Shown in pieces: positions 9,724 to 57,841 of a stretch of DNA of 64,000 bases; the stretch's first letter is position 1; the number at the start of each line of letters is the position of its first letter. Position numbers and translations under genes: made by a program. Under the pieces are notes generated by a model. The model was not told where the DNA came from, made no database searches, and saw only the letters and a program-made list of their open reading frames with translations. Source of the stretch: Paenibacillus azoreducens (GTDB taxonomy: Bacteria > Bacillota > Bacilli > Paenibacillales > Paenibacillaceae). Location of the stretch: positions 620,001 to 684,000 of the forward strand of contig NZ_AP025343.1 of assembly GCF_021654775.1 (NCBI RefSeq), in the 5' to 3' direction.

Positions 9724-9907
9724 TAACGGACACAGCTACCGCTATAGGGGGGGATTTCGCCAACTATGAAATCTAACGGACACAGTTGCAACTATTTGGC
9801 GAAAATGCCCCCTTTAGAGATAGTTTTACAGCAATTTAAGTGCTGCGGTGACCATTAGAATTTGAAAATTGCTGCTTTTTGCGAATTAGCGTCCATGGTG
9901 TCCGTTA
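9724..9907 (+). repeat. Mirrored four-unit repeat, TAACGGACAC family, copy 1
   Basis: 184 bp between convergent genes. It opens with TAACGGACACAGCTACCGCT, repeats TAACGGACACAG at about 9779, then carries GTGACCATTAGA and GTGTCCGTTA in inverse orientation at the right. Two direct units are thus followed by two inverted ones. Other copies lie at 28621-28802 and 36171-36352. The rest of the 9689-9949 gap holds nothing else I recognise. Confidence 0.85.
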
Positions 9908-9949
9908 CGTGCGGGTATTTGTTAGAATCGGCTGCACTATTGCTGCCGC

Positions 9950-11116
9950 CTAAGAAGCCATTTGTACCTTTTCCTCAGGCTTGCCCTGCAGCAGCTGCAT
10001 TCCCCCTACGATCATGATCGTCGCAACCAAAACGGACAGCAGGATGAGCAGGAGCGAAGCGGCTGCACTTGTAACGGCAGGCCCGCCGTTTACCATGTTC
10101 ATAATGCCGGTAACCGCATAGGTGGCTGGTGAATATTCACTGACAAAGTGGTAAAAGGATGGCAGCAATTCACGCGGAACCATTGCCCCGGATGTAATCA
10201 GCTGTATGGACAGCAGCGCGATATTGATCCACCCGCCGGCATCGCTGAAGATATAAAATGACAGCTGAGCGACGAACAAAAACGTGATGACGTAGATGAA
10301 CTGGAACAGCCACATGGCGGCAAATCCCTGATCGGAATGGACGCCCATCAGGGTAACCATGCCGGTACCGACGGTTGTCACAAGCAAAGACGCCGCGATA
10401 TTAAGCAGCGACCGGGCCGAGAGCAATGTCCAGCGGCCGTATGTTTGCCTGATCAGCTTGGAAGCCTTGTTCACTTCCATCACGAACAGCATGCAGCCTG
10501 TGAAGGAAGCGAGAACAAGCATCATGGGCACCATCGTCCGTGAAAAGTTGGAGATGGCGTGAATGTTGTTCATGTCCGCCACGACGCGTGAAGACATGGA
10601 TTGCGAAAGATGGAGCGCTTGGGATTTTGGAATATTCGACTGCTCGAGAACGGCGGTAATTCGGGATTGAACCGCTTGATCGTTGAGCGAGGCTGAAATC
10701 TGGTTAACCACGGTTTGCATGACGCTTTTGACCATCGACGGATTGGACTCGTTAACGGAGTACGTCACAACAGCCTTTTGAGCGGGATCTTTTATTGCGT
10801 GAGAGAAGTCCTTCGGAATATGAACGACCATTTGCAGTTTACGTTCGTCAAGCTCGGCCATTGCTTGCTCAAGATTGCTTTCCTGCATCATTTGAAATGG
10901 CAGCTTCGTCATCATTGCCTGCATAGCTTTCGATCCAATGCCCTGATCTTCATTCACAACCGCAATCGTAAACCGGTTCACATTGTTTGTAATATGATCG
11001 TACCCCGTCAGCCAAATCAAGCTGAATAATATTTGGAAGATAAGCGCCGTAATCGTTCCGATGATCACCATTGGAGATTTCAACAAAGCTAACAATGCAG
11101 ATTTAATAGATTTCAT
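9950..11116 (-). CDS. ABC-2 type membrane permease / YhgE-Pip-like exporter
   Basis: 388 residues. One N-terminal helix (about 20-40) is followed by a 180-residue extracytoplasmic part and five or six C-terminal helices, the layout of ABC-2 membrane proteins and the YhgE/Pip group. 'FTIAVVNEDQGIGSKAMQAM' and 'VVHIPKDFSHAI' are characteristic of this group. I chose ATG 11116; the GTG nine bases upstream lies inside the AAAGGAGTG ribosome site. It is divergent-adjacent to nothing but is preceded by a TetR gene on the same strand, and a palindrome resembling the TetR promoter palindrome lies directly upstream. A role in efflux of a toxic compound or lipid is inference. Confidence 0.82.
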   Translation of the reverse strand: MKSIKSALLALLKSPMVIIGTITALIFQILFSLIWLTGYDHITNNVNRFTIAVVNEDQGIGSKAMQAMMTKLPFQMMQESNLEQAMAELDERKLQMVVHIPKDFSHAIKDPAQKAVVTYSVNESNPSMVKSVMQTVVNQISASLNDQAVQSRITAVLEQSNIPKSQALHLSQSMSSRVVADMNNIHAISNFSRTMVPMMLVLASFTGCMLFVMEVNKASKLIRQTYGRWTLLSARSLLNIAASLLVTTVGTGMVTLMGVHSDQGFAAMWLFQFIYVITFLFVAQLSFYIFSDAGGWINIALLSIQLITSGAMVPRELLPSFYHFVSEYSPATYAVTGIMNMVNGGPAVTSAAASLLLILLSVLVATIMIVGGMQLLQGKPEEKVQMAS

Positions 11117-11132
11117 GTGCAGCACTCCTTTT

Positions 11133-11152
11133 TTTATTTATTGATAAATAAA
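11133..11152. promoter_or_regulatory. Putative TetR operator upstream of the ABC-2 permease
   Basis: A near-perfect 20 bp palindrome, TTTATTTAT-TG-ATAAATAAA, ends just before the ribosome site of the permease. A very similar palindrome precedes the neighbouring TetR gene. Confidence 0.6.
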
Positions 11153-11239
11153 TAATGTTGCCAAAAAAATGCGACCTCGGGCAGGAGGCAGCATTTTGAC
11201 GATATTTAATAGAGGGTTTTGCAAAAACCTGAATAAAAG

Positions 11240-11761
11240 CTATTTGTTCGACCAAGGCGAAAGCTCAGGGGCTTCGAGCACTTCTGACATGGTGATGATG
11301 AGTCCCGAGCCGATAAACATGCTGGCTGCAAATTTAGCATTCGGTATTCCCGAACGCTCGAAGCGCAGGATCACCGTCTGGTGAATCGAGGTGAAATGAT
11401 TACGCACAATCGCGCGGATGCCGGGTTCGGAAGTCGTAAATGCTTGCATGGTGACGAGCATTTCATCGCGGTGGGTCTTCATCAGTTGACCGAATGCACG
11501 GCCCATAACCTCAACGAGCTGTTCAGGCGGGGCTTCCACATTGACGAACGCCTCTTCAATTTTGCCTTTGGCACGTTCCAGGACTGCGATAAACAGATCT
11601 TCCTTGGATTTGAAGAAGTGAAAGACGTATGGCTGCGTCACGCCGGCCGCTTTTGCTACATTAGCTGTTGTCGTCTTGTAATAACCATGTTCGGCAAAGG
11701 ATGCCACGGCAGCATCAATGATTTGATCCCTGCGTGACGGTGAAGCTTCTTTTGATGGCAT
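11240..11761 (-). CDS. TetR/AcrR-family transcriptional regulator
   Basis: 173 residues. The N-terminal helix-turn-helix 'RRDQIIDAAVASFAEHGYYKTTTANVAKAAGVTQPYVFHFFKSKEDLF' covers about residues 10-57; the C-terminal ligand domain is all-helical and variable. The gene lies just upstream of the ABC-2 permease on the same strand with a 123-base gap, and both promoters carry similar AT-rich palindromes, so it probably represses itself and the permease and responds to the exported compound. ATG 11761 is in line with the family's usual start, although its ribosome site (AAAGGTGC) is modest. Confidence 0.92.
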   Translation of the reverse strand: MPSKEASPSRRDQIIDAAVASFAEHGYYKTTTANVAKAAGVTQPYVFHFFKSKEDLFIAVLERAKGKIEEAFVNVEAPPEQLVEVMGRAFGQLMKTHRDEMLVTMQAFTTSEPGIRAIVRNHFTSIHQTVILRFERSGIPNAKFAASMFIGSGLIITMSEVLEAPELSPWSNK

Positions 11762-11781
11762 GTTGGATCAGCACCTTTTTT

Positions 11782-11799
11782 ATTTATTAATCAATAAAT
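11782..11799. promoter_or_regulatory. Putative TetR autoregulatory operator
   Basis: ATTTATT-AATC-AATAAAT, 7 bp arms, lies 20 bases upstream of the tetR start codon and matches the palindrome at 11133-11152 over most positions. Confidence 0.6.
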
Positions 11800-11985
11800 T
11801 AATACTCTTCATAGAAATTGTCAATCCTTTTTTGCAATTCTGTTTTTTACGCAATGCTTGAAAAAGGAGAGGTATAATCAAAGAAAACAAAAATTTGGCT
11901 TTATGCCGATTATTTAAGCAAAACACTATTGACCCTCCTCTTTGGTCAGGCTTTAGACTGCTCTCAGAAAGGAGTGAAGCTTATT

Positions 11986-12741
11986 ATGCTATTCACAGTC
12001 AAAGAAGTATCGGATCTGTCCAAGGTGACGATCAAGACGCTGCATCATTATCACAAAATCGCTCTGCTTGAGCCGGCCGAAATCACGGAAGCGGGCTATC
12101 GCTTATACGGAATGAAAGAGCTTGAACGACTGCAGGCGATTTTATTTTACCGCGAGCTCGATTTTTCATTGGAGCAAATCGGCAAGCTGCTGGACCGGGA
12201 GCCGGACCGGATGGCGATGCTGGCGGACCAGGAAAAACTTCTGGAGCAGCGCAGGTTGAGATTGGACCGGGTCATGGACACGCTTAGGAAAACGAAAGCC
12301 GGCCTGGAAAGCGGAAAAACACTGCCGCAGGAGGAATTGTTCACCGGCTTTGAGAGCGAAGAAGAGTGGCGGCAAGCGCTGCAGGAACAAAGCGATTATC
12401 TTAAAGAACAGTACGGGGTAGAGCTTGAAGCGGAGCCGATTGATGTGCAGGAGATGAACGAGCAGGCCGTGGAGGCCGCAGCTTTTATGAAAAATATGTC
12501 CGCTTCCCTGCGTGGGGGGATCAAGCATAACGATCCGAGGGTCCATCAATTGATTCGGGATCATTTGGAATTTATGAACGCGCATGGTCATCAAATATCG
12601 GCTAAGGATTTTACGTCCCAGACATCGTTTTTTCTGCAGGATGATTTTCATCTTGGCATGCTCGAAGGACAGCAAACCGGTTTGGCTTATTACTTGAATG
12701 CCGCTGCGGCGTCGTATGCCGAAGCCGAAACTGAAGCATAA
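11986..12741 (+). CDS. MerR-family regulator with TipAS ligand-binding domain
   Basis: 251 residues. The N-terminal MerR winged helix 'LFTVKEVSDLSKVTIKTLHHYHKIALLEPAEITEAGYRLYG' (residues 2-43) is followed by a dimerisation coiled coil (about 75-115) and a C-terminal TipAS domain (about 130-250). TipAS domains bind thiopeptides and other hydrophobic drugs. ATG 11986 follows AGAAAGGAGTG; a longer frame from 11929 lacks a ribosome site. It stands alone between divergent tetR and the kinase operon. MerR regulators usually act on a promoter with a long spacer, which I could not assign with confidence. Confidence 0.92.
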   Translation: MLFTVKEVSDLSKVTIKTLHHYHKIALLEPAEITEAGYRLYGMKELERLQAILFYRELDFSLEQIGKLLDREPDRMAMLADQEKLLEQRRLRLDRVMDTLRKTKAGLESGKTLPQEELFTGFESEEEWRQALQEQSDYLKEQYGVELEAEPIDVQEMNEQAVEAAAFMKNMSASLRGGIKHNDPRVHQLIRDHLEFMNAHGHQISAKDFTSQTSFFLQDDFHLGMLEGQQTGLAYYLNAAAASYAEAETEA

Positions 12742-12750
12742 AAAAATACA

Positions 12751-12790
12751 GGCAGAGGATAGACGAAACGTTTATCTTCTGTCTTTTTTT
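12751..12790 (+). terminator. Rho-independent terminator after merR
   Basis: GGCAGAGGATAGA pairs, with G-U steps, with TTTATCTTCTGTC around a short loop and is followed by seven T residues. Confidence 0.8.
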
Positions 12791-12900
12791 GTCGATAGAG
12801 ATGATTATTCCAAATTTTTATATTGTGCATCCACAAGGAACTTTTGTCCCTCCATCGAATACATACGCCTAACAGCCAAAGGGAAAGGAGGCTCTGCCGC

Positions 12901-14667
12901 ATGCAAGTACGAGTACCCATTTTGAAGTCGGCATATCGGTATTTCAAGCGAAACCTGCGCGCCAAGCTGTTTTTGTTTTTCTTTATCGCATCGGCTGTCC
13001 CCTTGATGATTCTCGGGTATTTGTCATATTCGAAATCCACGGAGGAAATGCAGTCGCAGACCGTCCAATACGGCCAATCAAATATCACCCAGCTGCAGTC
13101 GCAGCTTGATTCGTATTCGCGCCAAATGAAATCGACCACCCGTTATATCTATTCCTACCTGCTTGATCCGCTTAACGGCACGCTGCATCCGGAAGAGCCG
13201 CAGGACTATGCTGGTTATGTGAGCCAAAAAAACTTCAACCGCTTTCTGGCTGCTCATAAAACAGAGGAAACCTCGGGCATTTATCTCATTACGCCGTCAA
13301 ATATTTATTTCGGATCGCCCCAGATTGATGTGAACAGGCTGAAGCAGCAGCCATGGTGGCAGGCCATTCCCGGGAATTACCGCGGCGAATATTGGACGGG
13401 GCTTCATGACAGCAGCTATTACGTGTCCCGCAACATGAATATTCCAAAGCAGATCATCGGTCTGGTATTTCCGGTGCAAAGCCAATACGGTTACCTGCAA
13501 AACAGCCGGATCGTCGTCGAAATGGACGCAACCAAGCTGCTGGAATCTTTCCGGACGCTCGAAAACAACCTGCATTCCTTCATTACGATCCGGGACAAGG
13601 ACGGCAGGCTGATCTATCAGAGCCCGAACATGGTCGAGGCGAGGGACGATGATCTCGTGTGGAACCGCAGCATTGAGTCCAGCGGGTGGAGCATTGAGGT
13701 AAGAACGCTGTATGAGCCGGTGTACCGCTCGACGATCATGATCCGCTATTTTACGATCGCGCTCATCGGATTTGCTTTTGTGCTTGTCCTGCTGATTTCC
13801 TACTTGTTCTCCGCACGCCTGACGAGACGGATTATTTCCCTAAAAAATAAAATGCAGCTTGTCGGCATCGGCCAGCTTCAATCGCGCATCGAGCCGAATA
13901 CGGAGGACGAACTCGGACGCCTGGGGGCGAGCTTTAATAAAATGGTGGAGCAGATCCGTTTCCTCATCGAGGAGGTGCAGCATAAGGAACAGCTCAAAAA
14001 AGAAGCCCAGCTGCAGGCCTTCCACTACCAGATCAACCCGCATCTGCTGCTGAACACGCTCAACATGATCCAGTGGCAGGCGAAGCTTAAGAGCGACCCG
14101 GAAATCCAGAACATGATCCACTATCTGATCAAGGTGCTGGAGGGTAACCTGGTAATCACGGAAGAGCTGATTCCTTTGCAAAAGGAGCTGCAAACCGTCG
14201 AATATTATTTGAAAATCCAGGAGGTGCGCTACAGCGGGGCCTTTGAGTACAGCATCGACGTGAACGCGGCGCTTGCCTCCTGCCTGATTCCGCGCATGAC
14301 GCTGCAGCCGCTGCTCGAAAATACGTTTTTTCACGGTTTTGAAGACGGCGAAGGCACCATTCGTATCGAAGTGAGGGAGGAAGGGACAGATCTGGTACTG
14401 ACGCTGGAAGACGACGGCGAGGGCATCGAACCGGACAAGCTGGCAACTCTTCTTCATGCGAAACAATCCCCGGCTCGGCTTGGAAAGGGCGGGCTCGGCT
14501 GCTACAATGTCGATCAAAAATTCAAGCTCCATTTTGGGGAAATGTACGGCATGCAGATTCGGTCGAAGCTGGGCGAAGGAACTGCGATTACCATTCGCTG
14601 GCCGAAAACGGAAGGTGCAAACAACCGGATTTTATCTGCGGACAAGGAAGAAAACCGAACAAATTGA
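12901..14667 (+). CDS. YesM-like sensor histidine kinase
   Basis: 588 residues. An N-terminal helix (about 25-45), a 250-residue extracellular sensor, a second helix (about 285-305) and a HAMP segment lead to the His_kinase domain with 'FHYQINPHLLLNTLN' (phosphoacceptor probably His381), then a HATPase with 'LQPLLENTFFHGF' and 'GEGIEPDK...GGLGCYNV'. The usual motif is INPHFLYNTL; here two aromatic residues are replaced by Leu. ATG 12901 follows GGGAAAGGAGG. Its partner regulator is at 17970, separated by the ABC transporter genes; together they probably sense the sugar and switch on this operon. Confidence 0.94.
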   Translation: MQVRVPILKSAYRYFKRNLRAKLFLFFFIASAVPLMILGYLSYSKSTEEMQSQTVQYGQSNITQLQSQLDSYSRQMKSTTRYIYSYLLDPLNGTLHPEEPQDYAGYVSQKNFNRFLAAHKTEETSGIYLITPSNIYFGSPQIDVNRLKQQPWWQAIPGNYRGEYWTGLHDSSYYVSRNMNIPKQIIGLVFPVQSQYGYLQNSRIVVEMDATKLLESFRTLENNLHSFITIRDKDGRLIYQSPNMVEARDDDLVWNRSIESSGWSIEVRTLYEPVYRSTIMIRYFTIALIGFAFVLVLLISYLFSARLTRRIISLKNKMQLVGIGQLQSRIEPNTEDELGRLGASFNKMVEQIRFLIEEVQHKEQLKKEAQLQAFHYQINPHLLLNTLNMIQWQAKLKSDPEIQNMIHYLIKVLEGNLVITEELIPLQKELQTVEYYLKIQEVRYSGAFEYSIDVNAALASCLIPRMTLQPLLENTFFHGFEDGEGTIRIEVREEGTDLVLTLEDDGEGIEPDKLATLLHAKQSPARLGKGGLGCYNVDQKFKLHFGEMYGMQIRSKLGEGTAITIRWPKTEGANNRILSADKEENRTN

Positions 14668-14694
14668 CAGAAAAGTGAAAACAAAATTCCGTTA

Positions 14695-14707
14695 TGAAAC
14701 GCTTTCA
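14695..14707. promoter_or_regulatory. cre-like site upstream of the binding-protein gene
   Basis: TGAAACGCTTTCA is a near-perfect palindrome similar to the CcpA consensus but one base shorter in the centre. It lies between the kinase gene and the binding-protein gene, where catabolite repression of the transporter would make sense. Confidence 0.4.
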
Positions 14708-14759
14708 TTGTTGTTATACTTGGGAAAATTATTGGGTTTCACAAAGGAGGCAGGCAGCT

Positions 14760-16088
14760 ATGAATGCCATGAAACGCATGTCGGCGGCTGTATTATGTTC
14801 GGTTCTCATGTTGACGCTAATTTTGTCAGGTTGTTCCGGCAAAACGGGCGAAAGCAAGTCCGAGGGGGAAGCGGCGGGCAAAAAGACGAAAATTACCGTC
14901 TGGATTTGGGAGGATGCCAAAAACGTCATTGATCTGAACATGCCGGAATTCAAAAAGCAGTACCCGGAGATCGATGTGGATTTGCATGTACTTGCCCAGT
15001 CCGATGTCTATCAAAATTTCCTGATTGCAGCCAGTTCCAGCGATGAGGTTCCCGATGTGGTGAATCTCGAATCGCTCCGCTTGTCGCAAATGATCGAAAC
15101 CGGCGGTTTGCTGGACATTACGGATAAGGTGGCTCCGTATAAGGATAAAATGAATGCTTATAAATGGGCTGACGCCACAAAAGACGGCAAAATTTACGCG
15201 ATGCCATGGGACAGCGGCCCGGTAGTCATGTTCTACCGCAACGATCTGTTCAAGCAGGCGGGGCTTCCTTACAAGCCGGAGGACGTGGCCGCCCAACTGA
15301 AGACCTGGAATGACTATATGAAATTCGCCAAGCAGCTGAAGGAAAAAACGGGCGTCGCGATGCTGGCGGAATCGAAATCGCAGACCGACGGCGTGTTCTT
15401 CCAACAGATGTTGTGGCAGCGCGACCTGTGGATGTTCGGCAAGGACGGTTCGGTTCAGCTGGATAACCCGGAAGTGATCAAGACGGCGCAGTATTTCGTC
15501 GACCTCGTGAAAAACGGCTATGTATATGAGGTGAAGCCATGGAGCGACGCCTGGTACAGCTCCTTCCAGCAAAATAAAGAAGCGACCATCGTAGGCGCCT
15601 CCTGGTACGAAGGACTGCTGCCGACGCTGATCGATCCGGACGCAAGCGGCAAATGGTCGGTGGTGCCGATGCCGAAGTGGTCCGCAGATGATAAATACGG
15701 CAGCGCGATCGACGGCGGGGCGAACCTGGCCATCAACAAAAACTCCAAGCATCCGGAAGAGGCGTGGAAATTCATCGAATTCATGCTCGGCAAAGAAGAG
15801 TCGCAGCTCAAGATGATGAAGGAAGGCGGATTGTTCCCATCCCTCGAGACGACCTACAATGACGAGGTTTTTAAGGGAAAGGTACCTTACTTTAACGACC
15901 AGCCGGTCCGTACCCTGTACATCGATGCTGTGAAGAATGTGGCTCCAATCACCTATACAAAGGATTATCCGCTTGCCAATGAACTGATTACGAACGCCTT
16001 CGCCGAGATCTTCCTTGACAATAAGTCGGTTGAAAGCGTGTTCAAAAAGGCGGCTGCCGAGCTGCGGCAGAAGACGGGACGCAAATAG
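14760..16088 (+). CDS. Extracellular sugar-binding lipoprotein (solute-binding family 1, UgpB/MalE type)
   Basis: 442 residues. The signal peptide has a lipobox 'LILSGCSGK', placing the lipid-modified Cys near residue 26. The mature part has the family pattern 'KITVWIWEDAKNVIDLNMPEFKKQYP' and a hinge region 'KIYAMPWDSGPVVMFYRNDLFKQAGL' around residues 145-170, which contributes to sugar binding. ATG 14760 has a strong AAAGGAGG site. It is followed by two permeases, so it delivers sugar to them. The presence of a GH2 beta-galactosidase later in the operon suggests a beta-galactoside substrate, which is inference. Confidence 0.94.
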   Translation: MNAMKRMSAAVLCSVLMLTLILSGCSGKTGESKSEGEAAGKKTKITVWIWEDAKNVIDLNMPEFKKQYPEIDVDLHVLAQSDVYQNFLIAASSSDEVPDVVNLESLRLSQMIETGGLLDITDKVAPYKDKMNAYKWADATKDGKIYAMPWDSGPVVMFYRNDLFKQAGLPYKPEDVAAQLKTWNDYMKFAKQLKEKTGVAMLAESKSQTDGVFFQQMLWQRDLWMFGKDGSVQLDNPEVIKTAQYFVDLVKNGYVYEVKPWSDAWYSSFQQNKEATIVGASWYEGLLPTLIDPDASGKWSVVPMPKWSADDKYGSAIDGGANLAINKNSKHPEEAWKFIEFMLGKEESQLKMMKEGGLFPSLETTYNDEVFKGKVPYFNDQPVRTLYIDAVKNVAPITYTKDYPLANELITNAFAEIFLDNKSVESVFKKAAAELRQKTGRK

Positions 16089-16193
16089 GCAACCATGAAT
16101 CTGCGTGTAAAGATACCGAAGCCGTCCGCACCCCGAACATACCGGTCAACCCGGGCTCGTAGTGCGAGGCTTCGCTTTCCTGGAGGAATCCCG

Positions 16194-17075: not shown

Positions 17076-17087
17076 GCGGTGGATGAC

Positions 17088-26176: not shown

Positions 26177-26189
26177 TAGGAAAGAGGAT

Positions 26190-26266
26190 TGCTGATAAAC
26201 AGGACTGCTGAAAAAGAGGGCTACTGATAAACAGGACTGCTGATAAAGAGGGCTACTGATAAATAG
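26190..26266 (+). repeat. Tandem repeat before the operon terminator
   Basis: Two units of 32-33 bases (each reading CTGATAAACAGGACTGCTGA... then AGAGGGCTA) and part of a third lie right after gcvPB. The AGAGGGC element in the second unit forms the terminator stem. Confidence 0.7.
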
Positions 26267-28209: not shown

Positions 28210-28392
28210 TAACGAAACGTGACATCGCTATTTGCAACAAAAATGGCCTTTTGAAATTTTAACGAAACAGGGTATTGTTATTAAGCTCAAAGGTGGCTTG
28301 CAAGCCCGATTTTACCCCAAATAACGATCTGTAGTTTCGTTAGATTTCATTTGCTCTTGTTTTTGCGGCAATAACGCTCCGTAGTTTCGTTA
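28210..28392. repeat. Mirrored four-unit repeat, TAACGAAAC family, copy 1
   Basis: 183 bp. TAACGAAACGTGACATCGCT at the left, a second direct unit TAACGAAACAGGGTATTGTT at about 28260, then two inverted units ending GTAGTTTCGTTA at about 28342 and 28392. The plan and length equal those of the TAACGGACAC family. Confidence 0.85.
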
Positions 28393-28620: not shown

Positions 28621-28802
28621 TAACGGACGCCATGGACGTTATTTCGCTAAAAGTGGCGGTTTTCAAAATGTAACGGACACCACAGCGCTTAATTGCCCCA
28701 AAATCCGCTAAAAATTAGTTTCTTCGCAAAATAGGTGCATCTGTGACCGTTAGAAATCAAAAAGCTCGAAATTTGCCCCGATAGCGGCCGCTGTGTCCGT
28801 TA
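28621..28802 (-). repeat. Mirrored four-unit repeat, TAACGGACAC family, copy 2
   Basis: 182 bp in the opposite orientation to copies 1 and 3. It begins TAACGGACGCCATGGACGTT, has a second TAACGGACACCACAGCGCTT at about 28675, an inverted GTGACCGTTAGA near 28743 and ends GCCGCTGTGTCCGTTA. Confidence 0.85.
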
Positions 28803-35857: not shown

Positions 35858-36099
35858 CTATATAAGTTGAACCAATGATTTGCACGGATGTAGGCAGCCG
35901 GGTGAAATGTTCTTTCGTTCGCTGTTGCTCCCGGATTTCTTTGATTTATACTAAATTCATGGTTGAAATCCGATCACAAAGCGTATGCTTACGATGCTAG
36001 CTTTCCTTCGGAAAGCTTTTAGGCGAACGCTTCGCTTCTCCGTAAATCTTTCTCCCTCTTGCCTATTCCTTATGCTTTTCTTTAGTTCAACTTATATAG
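35858..36099. repeat. Possible MITE bounded by 15 bp inverted repeats
   Basis: CTATATAAGTTGAAC at 35858-35872 and its exact reverse complement GTTCAACTTATATAG at 36085-36099 flank 212 bases without a credible gene. A second inverted copy of the left-end sequence occurs at 5697-5730. No target duplication could be confirmed. Confidence 0.5.
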
Positions 36100-36170: not shown

Positions 36171-36352
36171 TAACGGACACAGCGGCCGCTATTGAGGGCA
36201 ATTCCGGCTAATATGATTTTTAACGGACACAGATGCAGCTATTTCGTGGAAAATCCCGCATTTACCTGTGTTTGGAGCATATAAGCGCTGTGGTGACCGT
36301 TAGAATTTCAAAACGGCTATTATTAGCGAATTAACGTCCGTGGTGTCCGTTA
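36171..36352 (+). repeat. Mirrored four-unit repeat, TAACGGACAC family, copy 3
   Basis: 182 bp ending about 30 bases before the next start codon. Direct units begin at 36171 (TAACGGACACAGCGGCCGCT) and about 36222 (TAACGGACACAGATGCAGCT); inverted units end with GTGACCGTTA near 36302 and GTGTCCGTTA at 36352. Confidence 0.88.
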
Positions 36353-42291: not shown

Positions 42292-42306
42292 TTTTACATA
42301 TCAAAA

Positions 42307-42498
42307 ACTTCCGGGGTTCCCGCAAAGTAATCGGAATAAGCTTCAAAGGCTACACGTCACTCAGTATTTTTTGCTCCGCAAAAGCGCCTCTCCTCGAGAG
42401 GCGTCGGACTTCTTTCCGATACTCTCAGTACTTTTACTTTGCAAAAGCGCCCTTCAGGCGTCGGACTTCTTTCCGATACTCTTTGTGGGGTTATTTTA
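42307..42498. repeat. CCCCGCAAAG/CTTTGTGGGG element, copy 1
   Basis: 192 bp. Starts ACTTCCGGGGTTCCCGCAAA and ends CTTTGTGGGGTTATTTTA. Inside are two related blocks, each ending GGCGTCGGACTTCTTTCCGA followed by TACTCT. Near-identical copies lie at 43985-44176 and 50189-50379 and a short form at 52843-52910. Confidence 0.85.
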
Positions 42499-43970: not shown

Positions 43971-43984
43971 TTTACATATCAAAA

Positions 43985-44176
43985 ACTTCCGGGGTTCCCG
44001 CAAAGTAATCGGAATAAGCTTCAAAGGCTACACGTCACTCAGTATTTTTTGCTCCGCAAAAGCGCCTCTCCTCGAGAGGCGTCGGACTTCTTTCCGATAC
44101 TCTCAGTACTTTTGCTTTGCAAAAGCGCCCTTCAGGCGTCGGACTTCTTTCCGATACTCTTTGTGGGGTTATTTTA
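43985..44176. repeat. CCCCGCAAAG/CTTTGTGGGG element, copy 2
   Basis: 192 bp, almost identical to copy 1 because both were carried by the tandem duplication. It ends about 25 bases from the ldh stop codon. Confidence 0.85.
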
Positions 44177-50098: not shown

Positions 50099-50137
50099 TG
50101 GTTTTGTAAACCCTTTCATATGTCTAATCTGATTTTT

Positions 50138-50167: not shown

Positions 50168-50188
50168 ACATATCAGATAATAGTATAA

Positions 50189-50379
50189 ACTTCCGGGGTC
50201 CCCGCAAAGTAATCGGAATAAGCTTCGAAGGTCATGCGTCACTCAGTACTTTTACTCCGTAAAAGCGCCTCTCTTCGAGAGTCGTCGGACTTCTTTCCGA
50301 TACTCTCAGTACTTTTGCTTTGCAAAAGCGCCCTTCAGGCGTCGGACTTCTTTCCGATACTTTTTGTGGGGTTATTTTA
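50189..50379. repeat. CCCCGCAAAG/CTTTGTGGGG element, copy 3
   Basis: 191 bp, ACTTCCGGGGTCCCCGCAAA to TTTTTGTGGGGTTATTTTAG. It is about 90 percent identical to copies 1 and 2 but lies outside the duplicated unit, so it is an independent copy. Confidence 0.85.
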
Positions 50380-50580
50380 GTAAAAGTGAGAACATCGCTG
50401 GCCTAAGGCCGTCTAATTGTATAGAAGAAAAACGCCAACCGAAGTACCCTTCAAAGAAGACAGACCGCATTTGGCGGAAATTTTTTCTTGCGATTATAAA
50501 ATTACTTAAGCTCCGCTTAAAACTTATATATTCTATAATCTTATAAGATAAGAGTGAAAGAGAGAGCAGGGAGGATCGTC

Positions 50581-51186
50581 ATGATGGACGCGTCACGGGA
50601 TGCTGCGTTGGTCAGGGAAGTACTGGCTGGTCAAAAAGAAAGCTTTACGCAGCTAGTGGATGCACACAAAAACAAAATCTACGGGTTGCTGCGCGGAATG
50701 GGTGCAGGTCCGCAGGATGCCCAAGATTATACTCAGGAGGCTTTTCTCAAGGCATACCGGAAGCTGGGGACTTTTAGGGAGGAATCCAGTTTTGCTTCCT
50801 GGATGTACACGATTGCCGTAAATGTGATGAGGGATGCCAAGCGGAAAAAAAAAGCCGAGCCGGCGGATGATGAGGTCTTGGCCCAAGGGCGTCATCATAG
50901 CGAAACGCCGGAATTCGTTTATTTGCGCAAGGAGACCGGCGGAGAAGTAAGTCGTTTACTGGAGGAGCTTCCGGATAAATACCGCATCGTGCTTCTCCTT
51001 AGATATACAAATGAACTCAGTTATGAAGAAATTGCCGAAATTGCCGGTATTGAAGTGAATCAGGTGCGCAACCGGCTTCACCGGGCCAAGAAGTCCTTAT
51101 ATAAGAAAATCAAGGATAAGGAGGGGATGAAGAATGAAATGCTGGAAGCTATCGCAAACGAAAAAGTACATTCAATCTGGAAATGA
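50581..51186 (+). CDS. ECF-family RNA polymerase sigma factor
   Basis: 201 residues. Region 2 covers 'YGLLRGMGAGPQDAQDYTQEAFLKAYRKLGTFREESSFASWMYTIAVNVMRDAKRKK' (about 34-92), region 4 covers 'LPDKYRIVLLLRYTNELSYEEIAEIAGIEVNQVRNRLHRAKKSLYKKI' (about 130-180). ATG 50581 follows GGGAGG by six bases. It overlaps the downstream anti-sigma gene by 53 bases, the typical arrangement for a cognate pair. Regulon unknown. Confidence 0.93.
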   Translation: MMDASRDAALVREVLAGQKESFTQLVDAHKNKIYGLLRGMGAGPQDAQDYTQEAFLKAYRKLGTFREESSFASWMYTIAVNVMRDAKRKKKAEPADDEVLAQGRHHSETPEFVYLRKETGGEVSRLLEELPDKYRIVLLLRYTNELSYEEIAEIAGIEVNQVRNRLHRAKKSLYKKIKDKEGMKNEMLEAIANEKVHSIWK

Positions 51187-52744
51187 TGGAGACGATGAGC
51201 TGAAGTTCCATATTGAGATATGTCCGGAGTGTCAGACATTGGTACGTGAAGCTGAAGAAGAGGAAAAGCTTTGGATGGACCTGCTGTATTCGGAATCCCT
51301 GCCCGAAGGTTTCACGGAGCGGGTTATGTCTGCACTCGAAGGGGTGGAAATCGAACAGACTGAGCCAATCCATTCGGCTGCAGCAAGCAAACGTATTCGA
51401 AAAACACGGCGGCTGTTGAAAAAAAGCGCCTTATGGATCGCATCGTTGTTCATTGTTACCGCAGCCTTTACACTATACGCCCAGCCGTCTATTGCCGATT
51501 GGGTAAGATCCATTTTTTCGAATGAGACAACGGACAGCGGCATGATGGACGCCCGCCAGGTCGGGCTCCTGCAGAACCCCCACGTAAAGGTTGAGGATAA
51601 GGGGTACATCCTTGAAATCAATGAAGTGATTGCGGATGCCACCAGACTCGTGATGGGAGTCAAAGTAACAGATCCTGAAGGGAAACCTCTAGTTTATCAA
51701 GTGAACTGGAATAACTTGCATATCAGAGATGCGAACGGAAAAGAAGTGGCAGAGCTCAGGGGCATTGAAGGCACGGATACCATCGAAAAGCTGACATTTA
51801 CTTTTACGCAGGAAATCAATACGGATGAGTTGGATGTGGAAGGACATGTGGATCGCATTGCGATCCCGTTCTCGGAGCAGTATGTGGAAGGGAAGTGGGA
51901 TTTCAGCTTCAAGCTCGACATGAGGAAGGCAAACGAGCTGACGGTTGTCACTCCGCTGCATCAGCAATATACAACCCCTGAAGGTATGCACATTGAAATG
52001 GAAAAGCTGGTCCGGACACCAAGCGGGGTACGTCTGGAATTAAACACCAGCCTAAGGGGCAAGGCTGCGGAACTTTCTCCGGAAGAACTCGAAGGACAGC
52101 AGCAGCTCATGTTTCATTTTGAAAACGAGCAAGGAGAAGTCATCTCTAACGTGGACAGTTATAAAGTTGGCCATGCCCGAACGATCATTTCGCAAATCAG
52201 CGAGATGAATGCGGGCAAACTCCATTGGACCTATACATTTAACTATCTCCCTTATGACCATCAGAAGCTTCGTTTTGTATTCGATGGATATTCGATTCCC
52301 GTAAAAAGCGGCGGGTCGGTAGAGCTGATATCCAAAGATTTCAAAAAGAGTCCGATTATTTTTAAAGATCAAGGGGATGAATTTACCTTAAACGATTTCA
52401 GGGTTCATCAGGATCCCAACCTGAAAGAAGATGAGGAGCCGAGGGAAAGCATCATTCAGGTGACAGGAAAGATGTATAACCGGTTCAATAATGATACTTG
52501 GGTTGTGAAGGATCAGGACGGCAAGGAATATCAGGTAGGTTTTAAAGGATCCGTTCGATGGGGCGAGGTCAACCTGGTATCCGGAGAACCTGGTTTTATC
52601 GTGTACGGAATGGGGAAACTTCCGGAAAAAGCAACCTTGATCCGCACAGTTACTGATAAGTTTTACGATAATGTGAAATGGTCCTTTGAAATTCCTAAAG
52701 CCAAGTCCATACCCGGCCTGGAAAATGCGGATCCGCAGAACTAA
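51134..52744 (+). CDS. Anti-sigma factor with zinc-finger-like N-terminus and DUF4179 domain
   Basis: 536 residues. The N-terminus has 'LKFHIEICPECQTL' (His-x3-Cys-x2-Cys), the ZAS zinc motif of anti-sigma factors. One helix 'SALWIASLFIVTAAFTLYA' (about 97-115) crosses the membrane, and a DUF4179 domain (about 130-230) begins with 'VEDKGYILEINEVIADATRLVMGVKV' and is followed by DUF5643-like beta domains. It probably sequesters the overlapping sigma factor and releases it on an envelope signal. The hairpin after the stop ends the operon. Confidence 0.9.
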   Translation: MKCWKLSQTKKYIQSGNDGDDELKFHIEICPECQTLVREAEEEEKLWMDLLYSESLPEGFTERVMSALEGVEIEQTEPIHSAAASKRIRKTRRLLKKSALWIASLFIVTAAFTLYAQPSIADWVRSIFSNETTDSGMMDARQVGLLQNPHVKVEDKGYILEINEVIADATRLVMGVKVTDPEGKPLVYQVNWNNLHIRDANGKEVAELRGIEGTDTIEKLTFTFTQEINTDELDVEGHVDRIAIPFSEQYVEGKWDFSFKLDMRKANELTVVTPLHQQYTTPEGMHIEMEKLVRTPSGVRLELNTSLRGKAAELSPEELEGQQQLMFHFENEQGEVISNVDSYKVGHARTIISQISEMNAGKLHWTYTFNYLPYDHQKLRFVFDGYSIPVKSGGSVELISKDFKKSPIIFKDQGDEFTLNDFRVHQDPNLKEDEEPRESIIQVTGKMYNRFNNDTWVVKDQDGKEYQVGFKGSVRWGEVNLVSGEPGFIVYGMGKLPEKATLIRTVTDKFYDNVKWSFEIPKAKSIPGLENADPQN

Positions 52745-52767
52745 TGAGTTTTTGATATGTCAAAATA

Positions 52768-52818
52768 AGCGTACCTCCTAAATGGCCTGATGCCAGGAAG
52801 GAGGTACGCTATTTTTTA
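52768..52818 (+). terminator. Terminator after the sigma/DUF4179 operon
   Basis: AGCGTACCTCCT and AGGAGGTACGCT form a 12 bp stem followed by ATTTTTT. Confidence 0.88.
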
Positions 52819-52842
52819 GCAGTATAGAATTTATAAGTTTTT

Positions 52843-52910
52843 TTGGGGGTCCCCGCAAAGTATTTGGAATAAGCATCGAAGCATAGGCTCCACTTTGTGG
52901 GGTTATTTTA
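52843..52910. repeat. CCCCGCAAAG/CTTTGTGGGG element, short copy 4
   Basis: 68 bp. It keeps both ends (GGTCCCCGCAAAGT and ACTTTGTGGGGTTATTTTA) and GGAATAAGC but lacks the inner blocks of the full copies. Confidence 0.75.
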
Positions 52911-52971
52911 GAGTCTTTATTGTAGTCGATGTATCCGCATGGGATGGGTAAGCATTGCTGCCGCAAAGCCG

Positions 52972-54003
52972 TTAATCATGCTTTATATAGATTTTCCGGT
53001 ATACAGCCGGCGTCAGACTTTCGAATTTTTTGAAGGTTTTGATAAAATATCCCGGATCGGCAAAACCCATCTCGTCGCTGATCTGATTGACGGACAAATC
53101 GGTTGTTTCCAGGAGCTGCTTGGCCCATTCGATTTTGAGCCGGGGGACGAATACGGAGAAATTCTCGCCCGTCTCCCGGGTAAAGATGCGGCTGAAATAG
53201 CTTGGGCTGACATGGCAAAGATTTGCCATATCCCGTAAATGGACGTTTTCGCGCTTATGCCGGTAAATATAATCGAAAGCGGGCTGCAGCGTCAGGTTGC
53301 TCGAACGGTACGCATTGGCCATGCTTTTTTGGATCTTCGTGTCGATGAGGGTGCTTGAAAGTTCGTTTTGCATCGCCTGAAGATGTTCATAGGCCGGCGC
53401 TGCAGGGGGGATGGAAGTTGTAGTGTTAGTCGGCTCCAGAGATAACGTTTTTCTGTACATATCGATCGTTGCGTTTTTATGGATAGCCTCTTCAACGATA
53501 TAATTGCATAAATGAAACAACATTTCGGCAATCGTCGACACTTCTTCGGAGGACAAGATCGGCAGGGACCGATATTCGTTTTTGAGCGCCTTAAACTTCC
53601 GGTCTGTTTCAGCGTTCGCCGGCCGGGTTACAATTTGTTCAAGCGGAAGATCCGAGTCCCGAAGTTTGATTTGCCCCGCCATGATCGCGCCGATGTATTG
53701 GTTATCTATAATGATCGGAATCGCGATGTCGATAATGCCGAAATGGCATTTGTAGACATAAGGTTTGTTCGTGCGGACGGCTTCCAGCCCTCCCCGCGCA
53801 TCGCATTTCTGACAGTAGGAAGACAGGGCATCATCTTGGCGCACCGCTTGGCAGAAGGCCTGGCAGTGGCTGTGCTTGGTGACGGGCACTCCTTTGTAAT
53901 CGACTGTGATAATCGCCATCCGGGTAACCAGGGAAAGCGAGTCCTGCAGTTTATGCCATTTATCGATATCAATGATCCGGTGCAGATCAAATCTTGAGTT
54001 CAT
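52972..54003 (-). CDS. PocR-domain AraC-family transcriptional regulator
   Basis: 343 residues. The N-terminal PocR ligand-binding domain (about 5-165) has the family cysteine pattern 'SHCQAFCQAVRQ...SSYCQKCDARGG' and 'PYVYKCHFGIIDIAIPIII'. The C-terminal AraC domain (about 240-340) has 'VHLRDMANLCHVSPSYFSRIFTRETG' and 'SVNQISDEMGFADPGYFIKTFKKFE'. ATG 54003 follows GGAGCGAAC. It is divergent from gldA and the dihydroxyacetone kinase gene, so it probably activates them in response to glycerol, dihydroxyacetone or a propanediol. Confidence 0.93.
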   Translation of the reverse strand: MNSRFDLHRIIDIDKWHKLQDSLSLVTRMAIITVDYKGVPVTKHSHCQAFCQAVRQDDALSSYCQKCDARGGLEAVRTNKPYVYKCHFGIIDIAIPIIIDNQYIGAIMAGQIKLRDSDLPLEQIVTRPANAETDRKFKALKNEYRSLPILSSEEVSTIAEMLFHLCNYIVEEAIHKNATIDMYRKTLSLEPTNTTTSIPPAAPAYEHLQAMQNELSSTLIDTKIQKSMANAYRSSNLTLQPAFDYIYRHKRENVHLRDMANLCHVSPSYFSRIFTRETGENFSVFVPRLKIEWAKQLLETTDLSVNQISDEMGFADPGYFIKTFKKFESLTPAVYRKIYIKHD

Positions 54004-54074
54004 CTTGTTCGCTCCAATTCGCATGGGAATCATATTTTTATGCCATTTTGATTATACTAAAATGTTGGTTTTCA

Positions 54075-54111
54075 GGACAAGATAGTACAATTTTGGCGGT
54101 AATGGACAAGA
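54075..54111. promoter_or_regulatory. Direct GGACAAGA repeats, AraC-type binding candidates
   Basis: GGACAAGA occurs at 54075-54082 and 54104-54111, 29 bases apart, between the divergent regulator and gldA. Direct repeats spaced by near-integral turns are usual for AraC-family activators. Confidence 0.4.
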
Positions 54112-54121
54112 AAATTCCATC

Positions 54122-54135
54122 GGAAAGCGCTTTAA
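54122..54135. promoter_or_regulatory. cre-like CcpA site upstream of gldA
   Basis: GGAAAGCGCTTTAA matches the cre consensus TGAAAGCGCTTTCA at 12 of 14 positions, consistent with glucose repression of glycerol use. Confidence 0.5.
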
Positions 54136-54211
54136 ATGGACTTTGAAGTGCAATGATCCTGCGATGCATCCAAAGTATAATGGACGTGAGAATATGAAGG
54201 AGGGAATCATG

Positions 54212-55351
54212 ATGAGAAAGGCTTTTATTAGTCCAAGCAAGTATGTACAAGGAGAAAATGAATTATTGAATTTGGGTTATTTTATCCGGACATACGGAGA
54301 TTCCGCTCTGCTGATCGCCCATCCGGAAGATGTGGAACGGGTTAAGGACAAGCTGGATGTTACAATAAATAAATTTAATGTTACACTGGTTGAAAGCGGA
54401 TTCCATGGTGAGTGCACCCGGGATGAAATAAAGCGGCTCAAGGAGCTGGCCCGCGAGAAGAAATGCTCTTGCACCATCGGACTTGGCGGAGGCAAAGCGA
54501 TCGATACCGCCAAATGCGTAGCGGAAGGCGATGCGTTGATCATTGTGCCGACGATTGCGGCTACGGATGCGCCAACAAGCCATTCGGCCGTCATTTATAC
54601 CGAAGAAGGGGCTTTTGAGGACTACGCCTATTTCAAACAAAGTCCAAGCGTGGTGATGATCGATACGACGGTGATCGCCAATGCGCCTACGCGTTTTCTG
54701 GTATCCGGCATGGGGGATGCCTTATCGACATATTATGAAGCGAGAGCAACGTCGCGTTCTTTTACAAAAGTGAATGCGGGCTTGCCTTGCGGCGTTCATG
54801 AGGGGGCTGCTCCGGTGGCGCGGGGAACCAAAGCGGCGCTTGCGCTTGCCAAACTGTGTTACGAAACATTGCTGGAAGACGGGGTTAACGCCAAAATCGC
54901 CTGTGACAGCAATCAGGTTACGCCTGCGCTTGAAAATATCATCGAAACCAACATCCTGCTGTCCGGACTGGGTTTTGAAAGCGGCGGTCTGGCTGCGGCC
55001 CATGCCATTCACAATGGCTTGACGGTGCTTCCTGGAACGCATCATTATTTCCATGGGGAAAAGGTAGCTTTCAGCACCATTGCCCAACTGGTTCTCGAAA
55101 ATGCGCCGCAGGCAGAGCTGAATGAAGTGCTGGAGTTTTGTTCGGCCATCGGTTTGCCGGTATGTTTGGCGGACATCGGCGTAAACAGCATCACGCAGGA
55201 GGAACTGCTTAAGGTTGCGCAAATCGCCTGCATTCCCGAAGAATCGATTCATGCGATGCCATTCCCGATTACCGAGGAAGCCGTTGCGTCCGCGATTGCG
55301 GTTGCGGACCAAATCGGCCGCGAATTCAAAAAAAGTAAGGGTGCTTTGTAA
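54212..55351 (+). CDS. gldA: Glycerol dehydrogenase
   Basis: 379 residues, iron/zinc-containing alcohol dehydrogenase family. 'IGLGGGKAIDTAKCVAEG' binds NAD, 'IAATDAPTSHSAVIYTEEG' contacts substrate, and the metal ligands are seen in 'SGMGDALSTYYEAR', 'AAHAIHNGL' and 'HHYFHGEKVAF'. It oxidises glycerol to dihydroxyacetone with NAD. The GAAGGAGGGA site fits ATG 54212; ATG 54209 directly before it is equally possible. The stop overlaps the dihydroxyacetone kinase ATG by one base (TAATG), so the two steps are coupled. Confidence 0.94.
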   Translation: MRKAFISPSKYVQGENELLNLGYFIRTYGDSALLIAHPEDVERVKDKLDVTINKFNVTLVESGFHGECTRDEIKRLKELAREKKCSCTIGLGGGKAIDTAKCVAEGDALIIVPTIAATDAPTSHSAVIYTEEGAFEDYAYFKQSPSVVMIDTTVIANAPTRFLVSGMGDALSTYYEARATSRSFTKVNAGLPCGVHEGAAPVARGTKAALALAKLCYETLLEDGVNAKIACDSNQVTPALENIIETNILLSGLGFESGGLAAAHAIHNGLTVLPGTHHYFHGEKVAFSTIAQLVLENAPQAELNEVLEFCSAIGLPVCLADIGVNSITQEELLKVAQIACIPEESIHAMPFPITEEAVASAIAVADQIGREFKKSKGAL

Positions 55352-57111
55352 TGAAAAAAATTATGAATCAGCCGGAGACGCTGGTCAGAGAGATGTTGAG
55401 CGGCCTGGTGCTGGCGCATCCGGAGCTGGAGTTCAACAGCAAATATAAAATCATCAAGAAAAAACAAATCAATCCGCAAAAGGTGACGCTGATCAGCGGA
55501 GGCGGCAGCGGGCATGAACCGGCGCATGCAGGATTCGTGGGCAAAGGAATGCTGGATGTGGCTGTCTGCGGCGACGTGTTCGCTTCCCCGTCCCAAATCC
55601 AGGTGTACCAAGCGATCCGTTCATCGGCAAGCGAAAAGGGAACCCTGTTGATCATTAAAAATTACAGCGGCGACATCATGAATTTCAAAAATGCGGCCCA
55701 TTTGGCCGAAGAAGACGGTATTCGCGTCGATTATGTGAAGGTTGACGACGATATTGCCGTGGAAGACAGCTTGTATACGGTAGGTAAAAGAGGCGTTGCC
55801 GGGACCGTACTCGTGCATAAAATCGCCGGAGCGGCTGCGGAAGCCGGCATGTCCTTGGAGCAGGTGAAGGCTGCGGCGCAGCATGCCGTAGACAACGTGA
55901 AAAGCATCGGATTTGCACTGACCTCCTGCACCGTGCCTGCTAAAGGTACGCCAACCTTCTCCCTCGGCGAACAGGAGATGGAATACGGCGTAGGCATCCA
56001 CGGCGAGCCGGGTATCCGGCGGGAGCAGATGATCTCAGCCGACGAGCTGGCGGGCAGAATGGTGGCGGAATTGCTGCAGAGCCTGCAGATCAGCGGCGGT
56101 GCATCCGCCGAAGTGGCCGTATTGGTGAACGGTTTTGGGGGGACTCCGCTTCAGGAACTGTATCTGCTGAACAATTCGGTGATGCGGGAGTTAAGCTTGC
56201 GGGGAATCCAGGTGTACAAAGGTTTTGTCGGCAATTACATGACAAGCATCGACATGGCCGGCGCTTCGGTCTCCATCATGAAGCTGGATGATCAGCTTAA
56301 GGAGCTGCTGAGCGATGCATGCAACACGCCTGGGCTGACCATCAGCGGTCCGTTTGAACCTGTGCAATACAGCGAAGTGGTTGTCAAAGAGGATGAAGGC
56401 GGCAAGTCTGTGTCTTACGGTATGACAACAAGCGATGAGTATGCGGTTATCCGTGACGGCAAATTGTCGCTGAACAATATGATTTACCTGGTCGATAAAA
56501 TGAGCGAGATCATTATCGAAAATGAGGTTCCTTTCTGCGAATTGGATTCCCATGCTGGCGATGGCGATTTTGGGATGAGCGTGGCCAAGGGCTTCAAGCA
56601 GTTAAAAACCGAATGGGATGAAGTCATCGCCCAAGGAACGGATATCGGAAGATTCCTGGACGCCTGCTCGCTGATCATCATGGAGCATTGCGGCGGCGCT
56701 TCCGGCCCGATCTGGGGCTCGGGCTTCCGTGCTGCTAGCAAATATGCGGCGGATCGAGTGGAATTGTCTGTTTCGGAAATTGCGGATATGCTGAGCGCGG
56801 TTGTTAAAGGGATTCAGGACACGGGCGAAAGATCCTTTGGCCGGGGGGCGGTAGTCGGAGACAAGACGCTGGTCGATGCACTTGTGCCTTACGCGGATGC
56901 TTGGGCCGTTAGCGCCCGTAATGGCGACGATTTGAAGTCGGCCGGCATCAAAGCCGCCGAAGCGGCTGTGGAAGGCGCCAAGAAAACCGAAACGATCGTT
57001 GCGCGCATGGGAAGAGCGGGAACGGTCGGCGAGCGCAGCATCGGATACCCGGATGCCGGGGCGTATGCACTGGGAGTTATCTTTACAGGGCTTGCGCAGG
57101 CGCTTAAATAA
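55351..57111 (+). CDS. dhaK: Dihydroxyacetone kinase, DhaK-DhaL fused single chain
   Basis: 586 residues. The N-terminal DhaK domain (about 1-330) carries the substrate-binding His217 in 'GVGIHGEPG' and 'LISGGGSGHEPAHAGFVGKGMLDVA'. The C-terminal DhaL domain (about 370-586) holds the nucleotide-Mg motif Asp399, Asp404, Asp406 in 'LDSHAGDGDFG'. This is the ATP-dependent one-chain type as in Citrobacter and eukaryotes, not the phosphotransferase-dependent DhaKLM. It converts dihydroxyacetone from glycerol dehydrogenase into dihydroxyacetone phosphate. Operon partner of gldA. Confidence 0.94.
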   Translation: MKKIMNQPETLVREMLSGLVLAHPELEFNSKYKIIKKKQINPQKVTLISGGGSGHEPAHAGFVGKGMLDVAVCGDVFASPSQIQVYQAIRSSASEKGTLLIIKNYSGDIMNFKNAAHLAEEDGIRVDYVKVDDDIAVEDSLYTVGKRGVAGTVLVHKIAGAAAEAGMSLEQVKAAAQHAVDNVKSIGFALTSCTVPAKGTPTFSLGEQEMEYGVGIHGEPGIRREQMISADELAGRMVAELLQSLQISGGASAEVAVLVNGFGGTPLQELYLLNNSVMRELSLRGIQVYKGFVGNYMTSIDMAGASVSIMKLDDQLKELLSDACNTPGLTISGPFEPVQYSEVVVKEDEGGKSVSYGMTTSDEYAVIRDGKLSLNNMIYLVDKMSEIIIENEVPFCELDSHAGDGDFGMSVAKGFKQLKTEWDEVIAQGTDIGRFLDACSLIIMEHCGGASGPIWGSGFRAASKYAADRVELSVSEIADMLSAVVKGIQDTGERSFGRGAVVGDKTLVDALVPYADAWAVSARNGDDLKSAGIKAAEAAVEGAKKTETIVARMGRAGTVGERSIGYPDAGAYALGVIFTGLAQALK

Positions 57112-57340
57112 TAGGTTGCGGTTGCGACAAAAACAGTAGTTTATCTCTATGAACGCATAAATAATGCTCCAACATGTAAGAATGCTCAAACGCAAGAATG
57201 CTCCAATTGATATAAATGATGGCGGCTTGAGTTTGTTTTTCAGCCAGGATGGACAGTTTCTAATGGGGAACATTGGGAATGCTCTTGAATGGCACGGACG
57301 ACGCATAATCCCCGGCTGCCGCTGTGCTAGGGCACAAATA

Positions 57341-57368
57341 GCCAACCAGGCTTCTGGTTGGCATTTTT
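57341..57368 (+). terminator. Terminator in the gap after dhaK
   Basis: GCCAACCAG-GCTT-CTGGTTGGC is a perfect 9 bp stem followed by ATTTTTTAT. It lies 230 bases after dhaK and may end its transcript or that of an unrecognised small RNA. Confidence 0.7.
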
Positions 57369-57667
57369 TATGGGCAGAGTCTCCGGGGAGGTGATGAGGA
57401 TGATGTGAGCAGAGCCGGATGACTAGGGGAGAAGTAAAGCAGGGGGATGGATGGGATCCTTATCTCGAAAGACATCTGATTGTTAGATAGGGGCTTCACA
57501 TTGTGGGAGCAAGCCATTGCGTAATTAGAGATGCATTATGGTGAACAAACAATTATGTGGTCAGGTGCTGGATAGTGCAAAAAAGTAGTCTAGCTAGAAG
57601 GCGAGAATTAAGAGATGAAGTATTTGGTAGCAAAGATGCTGCATCGAGAACCCCATCATGGAAAAAA

Positions 57668-57841
57668 TGCAAAAGTGCAGTTATTTACCTTTGTTTTGCT
57701 GGATTATTAGGGAATTGTTGCTAAAGTGCATCCTTTTTTTCGATTTGGAATCTTTTATCACTATATGACTTGAAAAGGTTGCACTTTTGAAAGCTTTTCC
57801 AGTAAAAATTCCTTTTTGTCTTAAAAAACTGCACTTTTGCA
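57668..57841. repeat. Mirrored four-unit repeat, TGCAAAAGTGCA family
   Basis: 174 bp. Direct units TGCAAAAGTGCAGTTATTT (57668) and TGCTAAAGTGCATCCTTTT (about 57719), then inverted units GGTTGCACTTTTGAAAG (about 57778) and AACTGCACTTTTGCA (57827-57841). The plan repeats that of the two TAACG families. Confidence 0.75.

Follow-up and report, generated by a model that had tools for sequence, protein, structure and literature searches.

What are the repeats that lie in the intergenic gaps of Paenibacillus azoreducens as two direct units followed by two inverted ones, and does a dedicated protein go with them? We addressed this question from a 64,000-nucleotide stretch of the chromosome (assembly GCF_021654775.1, contig NZ_AP025343.1, positions 620,001 to 684,000, hereafter the window), which carries three families of such four-unit elements named GG, GA, and TG. 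We propose, as the likely answer, that they are non-autonomous arrays of four dyad sites paired with a cognate protein that combines a Vsr/DUF559-type nuclease fold with a winged helix, clade A of this protein going with elements of the TAACG type and clade B with elements whose units contain TGC. Six elements in the window follow one plan, with the units spaced 50/82/50 or 51/74/50 bp apart; the strand given is a convention that places the CCA-type arm first.

9724..9907, minus strand: GG-family four-unit element (TAACGGACAC box), between convergent open reading frames (ORFs)
28210..28392, plus strand: GA-family four-unit element (TAACGAAAC box), units at 28210, 28260, 28342 (minus), and 28392 (minus)
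28621..28802, plus strand: GG-family four-unit element (TAACGGACAC), 229 bp past the GA element at 28210..28392
36171..36352, minus strand: GG-family four-unit element (TAACGGACAC), between codirectional ORFs
57667..57842, plus strand: TG-family (TGCA) four-unit element (TGCAAAAGTGCA box), spacing 51/74/50
62351..62534, minus strand: GA-family four-unit element (TAACGAAAC box)

All the elements listed by a previous sequence-only reading were present at the places and with the plan that it gave, although the span that it drew ended at 57841 and leaves out the element at 62351, which it had named. A motif-free scan, which asks for a unit, a repeat of this unit 40 to 61 bp farther on, and then two inverted copies, recovered exactly these six elements in the window and none in 20 local shuffles; a run on the reversed sequence is unusable as a control because the plan survives reversal. 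Their intergenic placement was borne out as well, as all six lie clear of ORFs of at least 100 amino acids (aa).

Every unit forms an imperfect dyad of ~21 bp, TAACG-N11-CGYTA, followed by TT. The three families had been described as unrelated, which does not hold: the GG and GA families (the TAACG families) have TAACG, the 11-bp gap, and CGYTATT in common at fixed offsets, and the TG family, when aligned on its YTATT-like box, has the outer box 4 bp nearer and the same distance of 46 bp across the center as the other two. From their sequences, we take the three families to be versions of a common design. Among full copies, the spacing was 50-82-50 in 29 and 50-81-50 in 19 of the 51 GG copies, 50-82-50 in 29 of the 33 GA copies, and 50-74-51 in 14 and 51-74-50 in 3 of the 18 TG copies. 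These full copies come from 71 GG, 56 GA, and 43 TG chains in the loci collected, the remaining chains having other unit numbers or, for some of them, being a single element split in two by the script; extra tandem units at equal spacing occur, up to a total of eight. Copies group into families of close relatives, and the GA family is the most diverged in hand (median pair identity of 75%, against 80% and 89% for the other two).

In an alignment of 135 elements, the conserved columns were TAACG (fixed by the search pattern itself), positions 6 and 7, mostly purine and mostly A/T, and C-G/C-Y-T-A-T-T-T at positions 17 to 24. Columns rich in A/T at about 30 to 33, 41 to 42, and 46 to 50 correspond to roughly one per helical turn between two units. 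The box letters at positions 6 to 10 vary between genomes and tend to match across all four units of a copy, with 77.4% identity compared to 40.8% when units were shuffled between copies (the maximum of 1,000 shuffles being 43.5%). The same measure rose mildly at positions 11 to 15 (47% versus 37%) and not at all in three spacer windows. From common descent of the units alone, a rise in the spacers as well would be expected.

The elements extend far beyond the window. This genome contains 112 GG, 127 GA, and 63 TG exact half-elements and none of the pattern read backwards. Exact copies of the TAACG type (TAACG-N45-TAACG-N71..75-CGTTA-N45-CGTTA) were found in 124 of 295 Paenibacillaceae genomes and in 15 of 19 genera, with 0 to 147 copies per genome and 102 in this one, whereas the reversed pattern was found in none of the 295. 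A scan of GTDB contigs returned at least 118 loci, and the 80 matches listed belong to Paenibacillus, Cohnella, Fontibacillus, Saccharibacillus, or Paenibacillaceae. A four-unit TAACG element is also present on four viral contigs (L324 to L327). Among the 135 aligned elements, 19 overlap a greedily called ORF of at least 90 aa. This distribution supports the proposal of a superfamily of nonautonomous dispersed elements that share an architecture and differ in their end boxes; within the searchable data, the four-unit structure recurs genome-wide, and the copies do not resolve into parts of one ordinary transposon.

The other suggestion made for this shared architecture, a family of structured RNAs or cis-regulatory RNAs, is highly improbable. 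Twelve copies do fold as RNA at −41 to −65 kcal/mol, values that are usual for inverted repeats. However, in 51 GG, 33 GA, and 18 TG copies (102 in all), agreement between the left and right arms does not exceed the level expected from column composition, and no covariation shows, with the exception of one GA position (<0.01), and a scan of the window against Rfam gave no family at threshold. Moreover, the flanking genes stand in every relative orientation, with 40 convergent, 59 tandem, and 18 divergent cases in a baseline-free count of the 117 elements that have a gene on both sides.

We clustered the ORFs of 122 loci fetched by the element pattern; the cluster with the most cases near an element was ABC-transporter-like and near in only 7 of 16, while one small cluster from five species had an element 0 to 272 bp away in 5 of 5. 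A gene whose ends match the box, which the sequence-only reading had suggested looking for, was not found; what emerged instead is a protein family whose genes adjoin matching elements. The likely partner, judged from models of its structure, is a two-clade family with a Vsr/homing-endonuclease-like (DUF559) domain, which we take to belong to the Vsr-like PD-(D/E)XK fold class, and a winged helix. One gene of each clade was identified in this genome:

5582156-5582815: clade A gene; a full GG (TAACGGACAC) element starts 217 bp after it
5554377-5555066: clade B gene; a full TG (TGCA) element lies about 509 bp after it

Clade A proteins are about 218 aa long, and three members had no Pfam or NCBIfam match over the cutoff. 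Clade B passes the Pfam cutoff for PF04480 (22.6 versus 20.6 bits for P0121, a protein 99% identical to the clade B protein of this genome), and the latter keeps the motif D-X12-E-I-K. Protein searches returned 993 relatives of clade A, the best 120 of which are named transcriptional regulator or hypothetical, and 762 relatives of clade B, with many of the best 120 named DUF559 or very-short-patch-repair endonuclease; such source names prove nothing either way. A search with PADLOC gave no match, and sequence searches against solved structures gave weak matches, nearly all to winged-helix segments. In fold searches with structural models (the L220 protein for clade A and P0121 for clade B), the predicted catalytic domain matched the fold of the EDxHD homing endonuclease type, families missing from the match lists not being excluded thereby.

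The link between this gene and the repeat rests on position, co-occurrence, and specificity. A four-unit TAACG element lies −6 to 309 bp downstream of 44 of 70 clade A genes and within 600 bp upstream of 4 of 70. These genes comprise the 30 best-scoring ones and 40 chosen by hand from the next rows; the choice passed over several rows from element-free genomes (G182, G043, G186, G217, and G129), and G263 was added in the knowledge of its 147 copies. Since the hand-picked genes favored genomes with elements, the share of 44 in 70 is too high; the 30 best-scoring genes alone gave 17. For clade B, the motif-free scan found a four-unit element downstream of 14 of 30 genes and of none of 30 in shuffled sequence. 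This figure is probably low because the scan missed the known TG element of this genome. The units of 12 of these 14 elements contain TGC, the exceptions being L484 and L489.

Across genomes, with clade A scored as present at E < 1e-50, 109 of the 164 genomes that have clade A contain elements, compared to 15 of the 131 that lack it; at least 10 copies are present in 70 genomes with clade A and in a single one without. At least three copies coincided with clade A in 98 genomes, against a mean of 64 when clade A was shuffled within genera (0/5,000). Stricter cutoffs gave 97 versus 62.8 (1e-60) and 91 versus 60.3 (1e-75), with 0/5,000 each.

The protein and the box also diverge together. For the 44 clade A genes with an element, protein identity follows box identity (Mantel r = 0.54, 0/2,000), and paralogues within one genome adjoin different boxes (AATCT and GAACT in G209, AATCT and GTTGC in G187, GAACG and CTTGT in G044). 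Among protein pairs 66 to 90% identical, those with different boxes exceed those with the same box in differences within the recognition helix (residues 182 to 198) by a mean of 0.239, compared to −0.017 to 0.046 for other regions of the protein (0/200 permutations), the helix limits having been taken from the model of the L220 protein after the ranking of the columns had been seen. The residues most strongly linked to a box difference are 188, 34, 184, 75, 78, 185, and 183.

Several observations weigh against a nuclease paired with these arrays. Six clade A sequences read D-X12-E-X-Q/H, with Q or H replacing K, the third catalytic residue of PD-(D/E)XK, which makes cutting by clade A doubtful. 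No element lies within 600 bp downstream of 26 of the 70 clade A genes, although for 6 of the 70 the downstream sequence available was shorter than 783 bp. Exact elements are absent from 55 of the 164 genomes with clade A and present in 15 of the 131 without it, one of which has 21 copies. In genus g7, 17 of 18 genomes with clade A have fewer than three TAACG elements, and the gene is mostly a single match, raising the question of a domesticated or retargeted branch. The protein search counts three matches in this genome, among which the clade A and clade B proteins were identified and the third was not located. Finally, the GA family, with the most half-elements in this genome, has no partner gene as a neighbor among the loci examined. 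It appears to be an orphan that has lost its nuclease gene, and its divergence, the highest of the three families, is as expected of an orphan.

Part of this evidence feeds the main rival explanation, in which the protein serves its host as a DNA-binding regulator or chromosome organizer and has no nuclease activity. The arrays would be its operators or anchors, the downstream copy would autoregulate or terminate the gene, and no copying would take place. The winged helix, the name transcriptional regulator given to clade A by its sources, the missing catalytic K in the printed clade A sequences, the A/T-rich columns about every 10 bp between units, and the gene context counted above all fit such a role. 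We nevertheless judge it unlikely, as it sits poorly with a copy number ranging from 0 to 147 across the genomes of one family, with paralogues of one genome having different boxes, with copies that fall into families of close relatives, and with the retention of D-X12-E-X-K in clade B.

A paired nuclease remains our preferred reading, and the question becomes whether and how the arrays move. In 51 GG, 33 GA, and 18 TG copies, there was no clear excess of a target duplication (k of 2 to 12, offset of 0 to 7), a TA duplication within the box being indistinguishable. By eye, near-identical copies share some 10 to 80 bp of flank beyond the outer units and then diverge, and TG copies sit within a longer repeat. 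Site-specific inversion was considered and rejected, as the arm order L-L-R-R is kept in 49 of 51, 31 of 33, and 16 of 18 copies.

Insertion polymorphism had been proposed as a check by the sequence-only reading. The element at 36171 is missing from two relatives, G302 and G340, but the syntenic gap is much shorter and too diverged for a junction to be read cleanly. In a third relative, G343, an array of the GA family with additional inverted units occupies one orthologous gap, and GG sequence replaces the GA middle in this genome (L389 versus L017). At two further sites, G343 is without an exact unit, again with no clean junction. Against copying by the partner protein, the sites compared with G302, G340, and G343 revealed neither a clean empty site nor an excision product, and the copies that carry common flanks may be old segmental duplications.

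It is very unlikely that the elements are ordinary miniature inverted-repeat transposable elements of a conventional transposase yet to be found, with the nuclease gene merely a frequent neighbor. Their inverted ends and dispersed intergenic copies, the loss of similarity near the outer TAACG in many G343 copies, and the conserved C/G beside the outer TA would suit such elements. The missing excess of target duplications argues the other way, as do the gene-repeat links (co-occurrence, position, and the codivergence of box and helix). Moreover, among 351 TAACG half-elements in 1.5 Mb of loci, 317 are paired at the standard distance, 3 are likely to be, and 31 are not; several of these 31 are register artifacts or lie at locus ends, while no explanation emerged for a solo half at L396 or for some of the rest. 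No larger autonomous transposon with half-elements as its ends was recognized in the 1.5 Mb of loci or among the half-elements listed for this genome, and the one 1.4-kb pair of half-elements noticed in the lists for this genome is a single GA copy split by an insertion. This copy, at 5333793-5335221 (L131:1494-2922), is interrupted near its center by an IS4/IS231-like element (family assigned by eye) with a 370-aa transposase and an apparent target duplication of ~13 bp.

We propose the following model. Each element would offer its cognate protein four dyad sites of ~21 bp in a rigid array, one pair direct and one pair inverted. A winged-helix dimer would read one dyad, as the dyad symmetry and the test of recognition helix against box suggest, and four dimers at the fixed spacing of about five turns could assemble on looped or bent DNA. 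The nuclease domain may then nick or cut DNA, either at the element or at some target, and copies with ragged flanks would spread when the break is repaired with an element serving as the template. Such copying would explain both the 10 to 80 bp of common flank and the absence of a target duplication. The gene would retain a copy on its 3′ side, and new specificities would arise as the recognition helix changes and the box changes to match, a step supported by the paralogue and helix comparisons. More tentatively, and at somewhat less than an even chance, we picture a new class of selfish or domesticated system in which the winged-helix nuclease drives the copying of four-dyad arrays via double-strand-break repair, with repeated speciation into new protein-box pairs as the recognition helix changes, as a convergent double-stranded counterpart of REPIN-RAYT.

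Other repeats occur nearby. A dispersed repeat of the CCCCGCAAAGTAATCGGAATAAGC type lies in the window at 42298-42371, 43976-44049, 50180-50253, and 52831-52904, and a repeat of this look has more than 40 matches in G343. A second dispersed intergenic repeat (35909-36039) stands beside the element at 36171 and has many matches in G343, G340, and G302. The window also contains tandem arrays at 58157-58365 (units of ~21 bp), 62571-62770 (~28 bp), and 26181-26260 (~16 bp). Palindromic arrays with a 50- to 52-bp period and quite different boxes were seen at L178, L234, L244, L261, L278, L280, L305, and L324 and are possibly further families with other partners.

Many Paenibacillus-type bacteria contain dozens of these four-site repeats, often with a small nuclease-like gene of no assigned role directly ahead of one of them, and the pair looks like a new kind of repeat and partner protein system. 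The dispersed repeat superfamily thereby gains a candidate partner protein, a structural model, and predicted specificity residues. If the partner acts as proposed, systems of dispersed bacterial repeats plus a protein of their own have evolved from unrelated enzymes, and the paralogue-box pairs that nature supplies could be used directly to decipher a DNA-recognition code. We found no description of the repeat superfamily or of the protein pairing in the literature (open access, mostly search listings), and a search with literal sequences gave, among the matches listed, no title on these repeats. BOX, ERIC, and Correia-type repeats are likewise modular, dispersed, and intergenic, some with a variable unit number as here; we know of no dedicated partner protein of such a kind for them.

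Two known protein groups stand close to the partner. Its predicted catalytic domain resembles in fold that of the EDxHD homing endonuclease I-Bth0305I (PDB 3r3p; PMC3943268, in its accessible portion), whereas the targets here would be high-copy dispersed arrays and the DNA-binding part is modeled as a MarR-like winged helix. With the DUF559/Vsr-like PD-(D/E)XK proteins (PF04480), it shares the Pfam score and the D-X12-E-X-K motif of clade B; it differs in that the Pfam model does not detect clade A, in that the six clade A sequences have Q/H in place of K, and in that both clades have a winged helix and a repeat partner.

The closest likeness in working is to REPIN-RAYT (REPtron) systems, a class that, in the accessible portions of PMC3116915, PMC3733652, and PMC8266576, comprises dispersed intergenic palindromic repeats in several families per genome, each by its own partner gene. 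According to the accessible portion of PMC3116915, a single genome has three groups of repeats, and each group adjoins one of three RAYT genes. As in the present system, the repeat type and the adjacent protein codiverge, a similarity of working and not of membership. That the elements are themselves known REPIN-RAYT elements has next to no probability despite this common logic of a repeat and an adjacent partner gene, and the assignment was dropped: none of the three families has a four-unit element in the flanks read around the five Y1 transposase (Y1_Tnp) genes of this genome, one flank being masked, and the consensus is without the GTAG tag. The partner here has a Vsr/DUF559-type fold and a winged helix instead of being an HUH tyrosine transposase, the repeat has four dyads at a rigid 50-bp spacing instead of two inverted GTAG-tagged hairpins, and, unlike in REPIN-RAYT, the element lies mostly 3′ of its gene, in Paenibacillaceae. 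The system thus works like REPIN-RAYT with an unrelated protein and is not a member of it by enzyme fold, repeat form, or unit number. While the logic of a repeat with a partner protein is already known, we rate the pairing of dispersed repeats with such a protein fold as categorically new, since no known system that we found pairs them with this fold.

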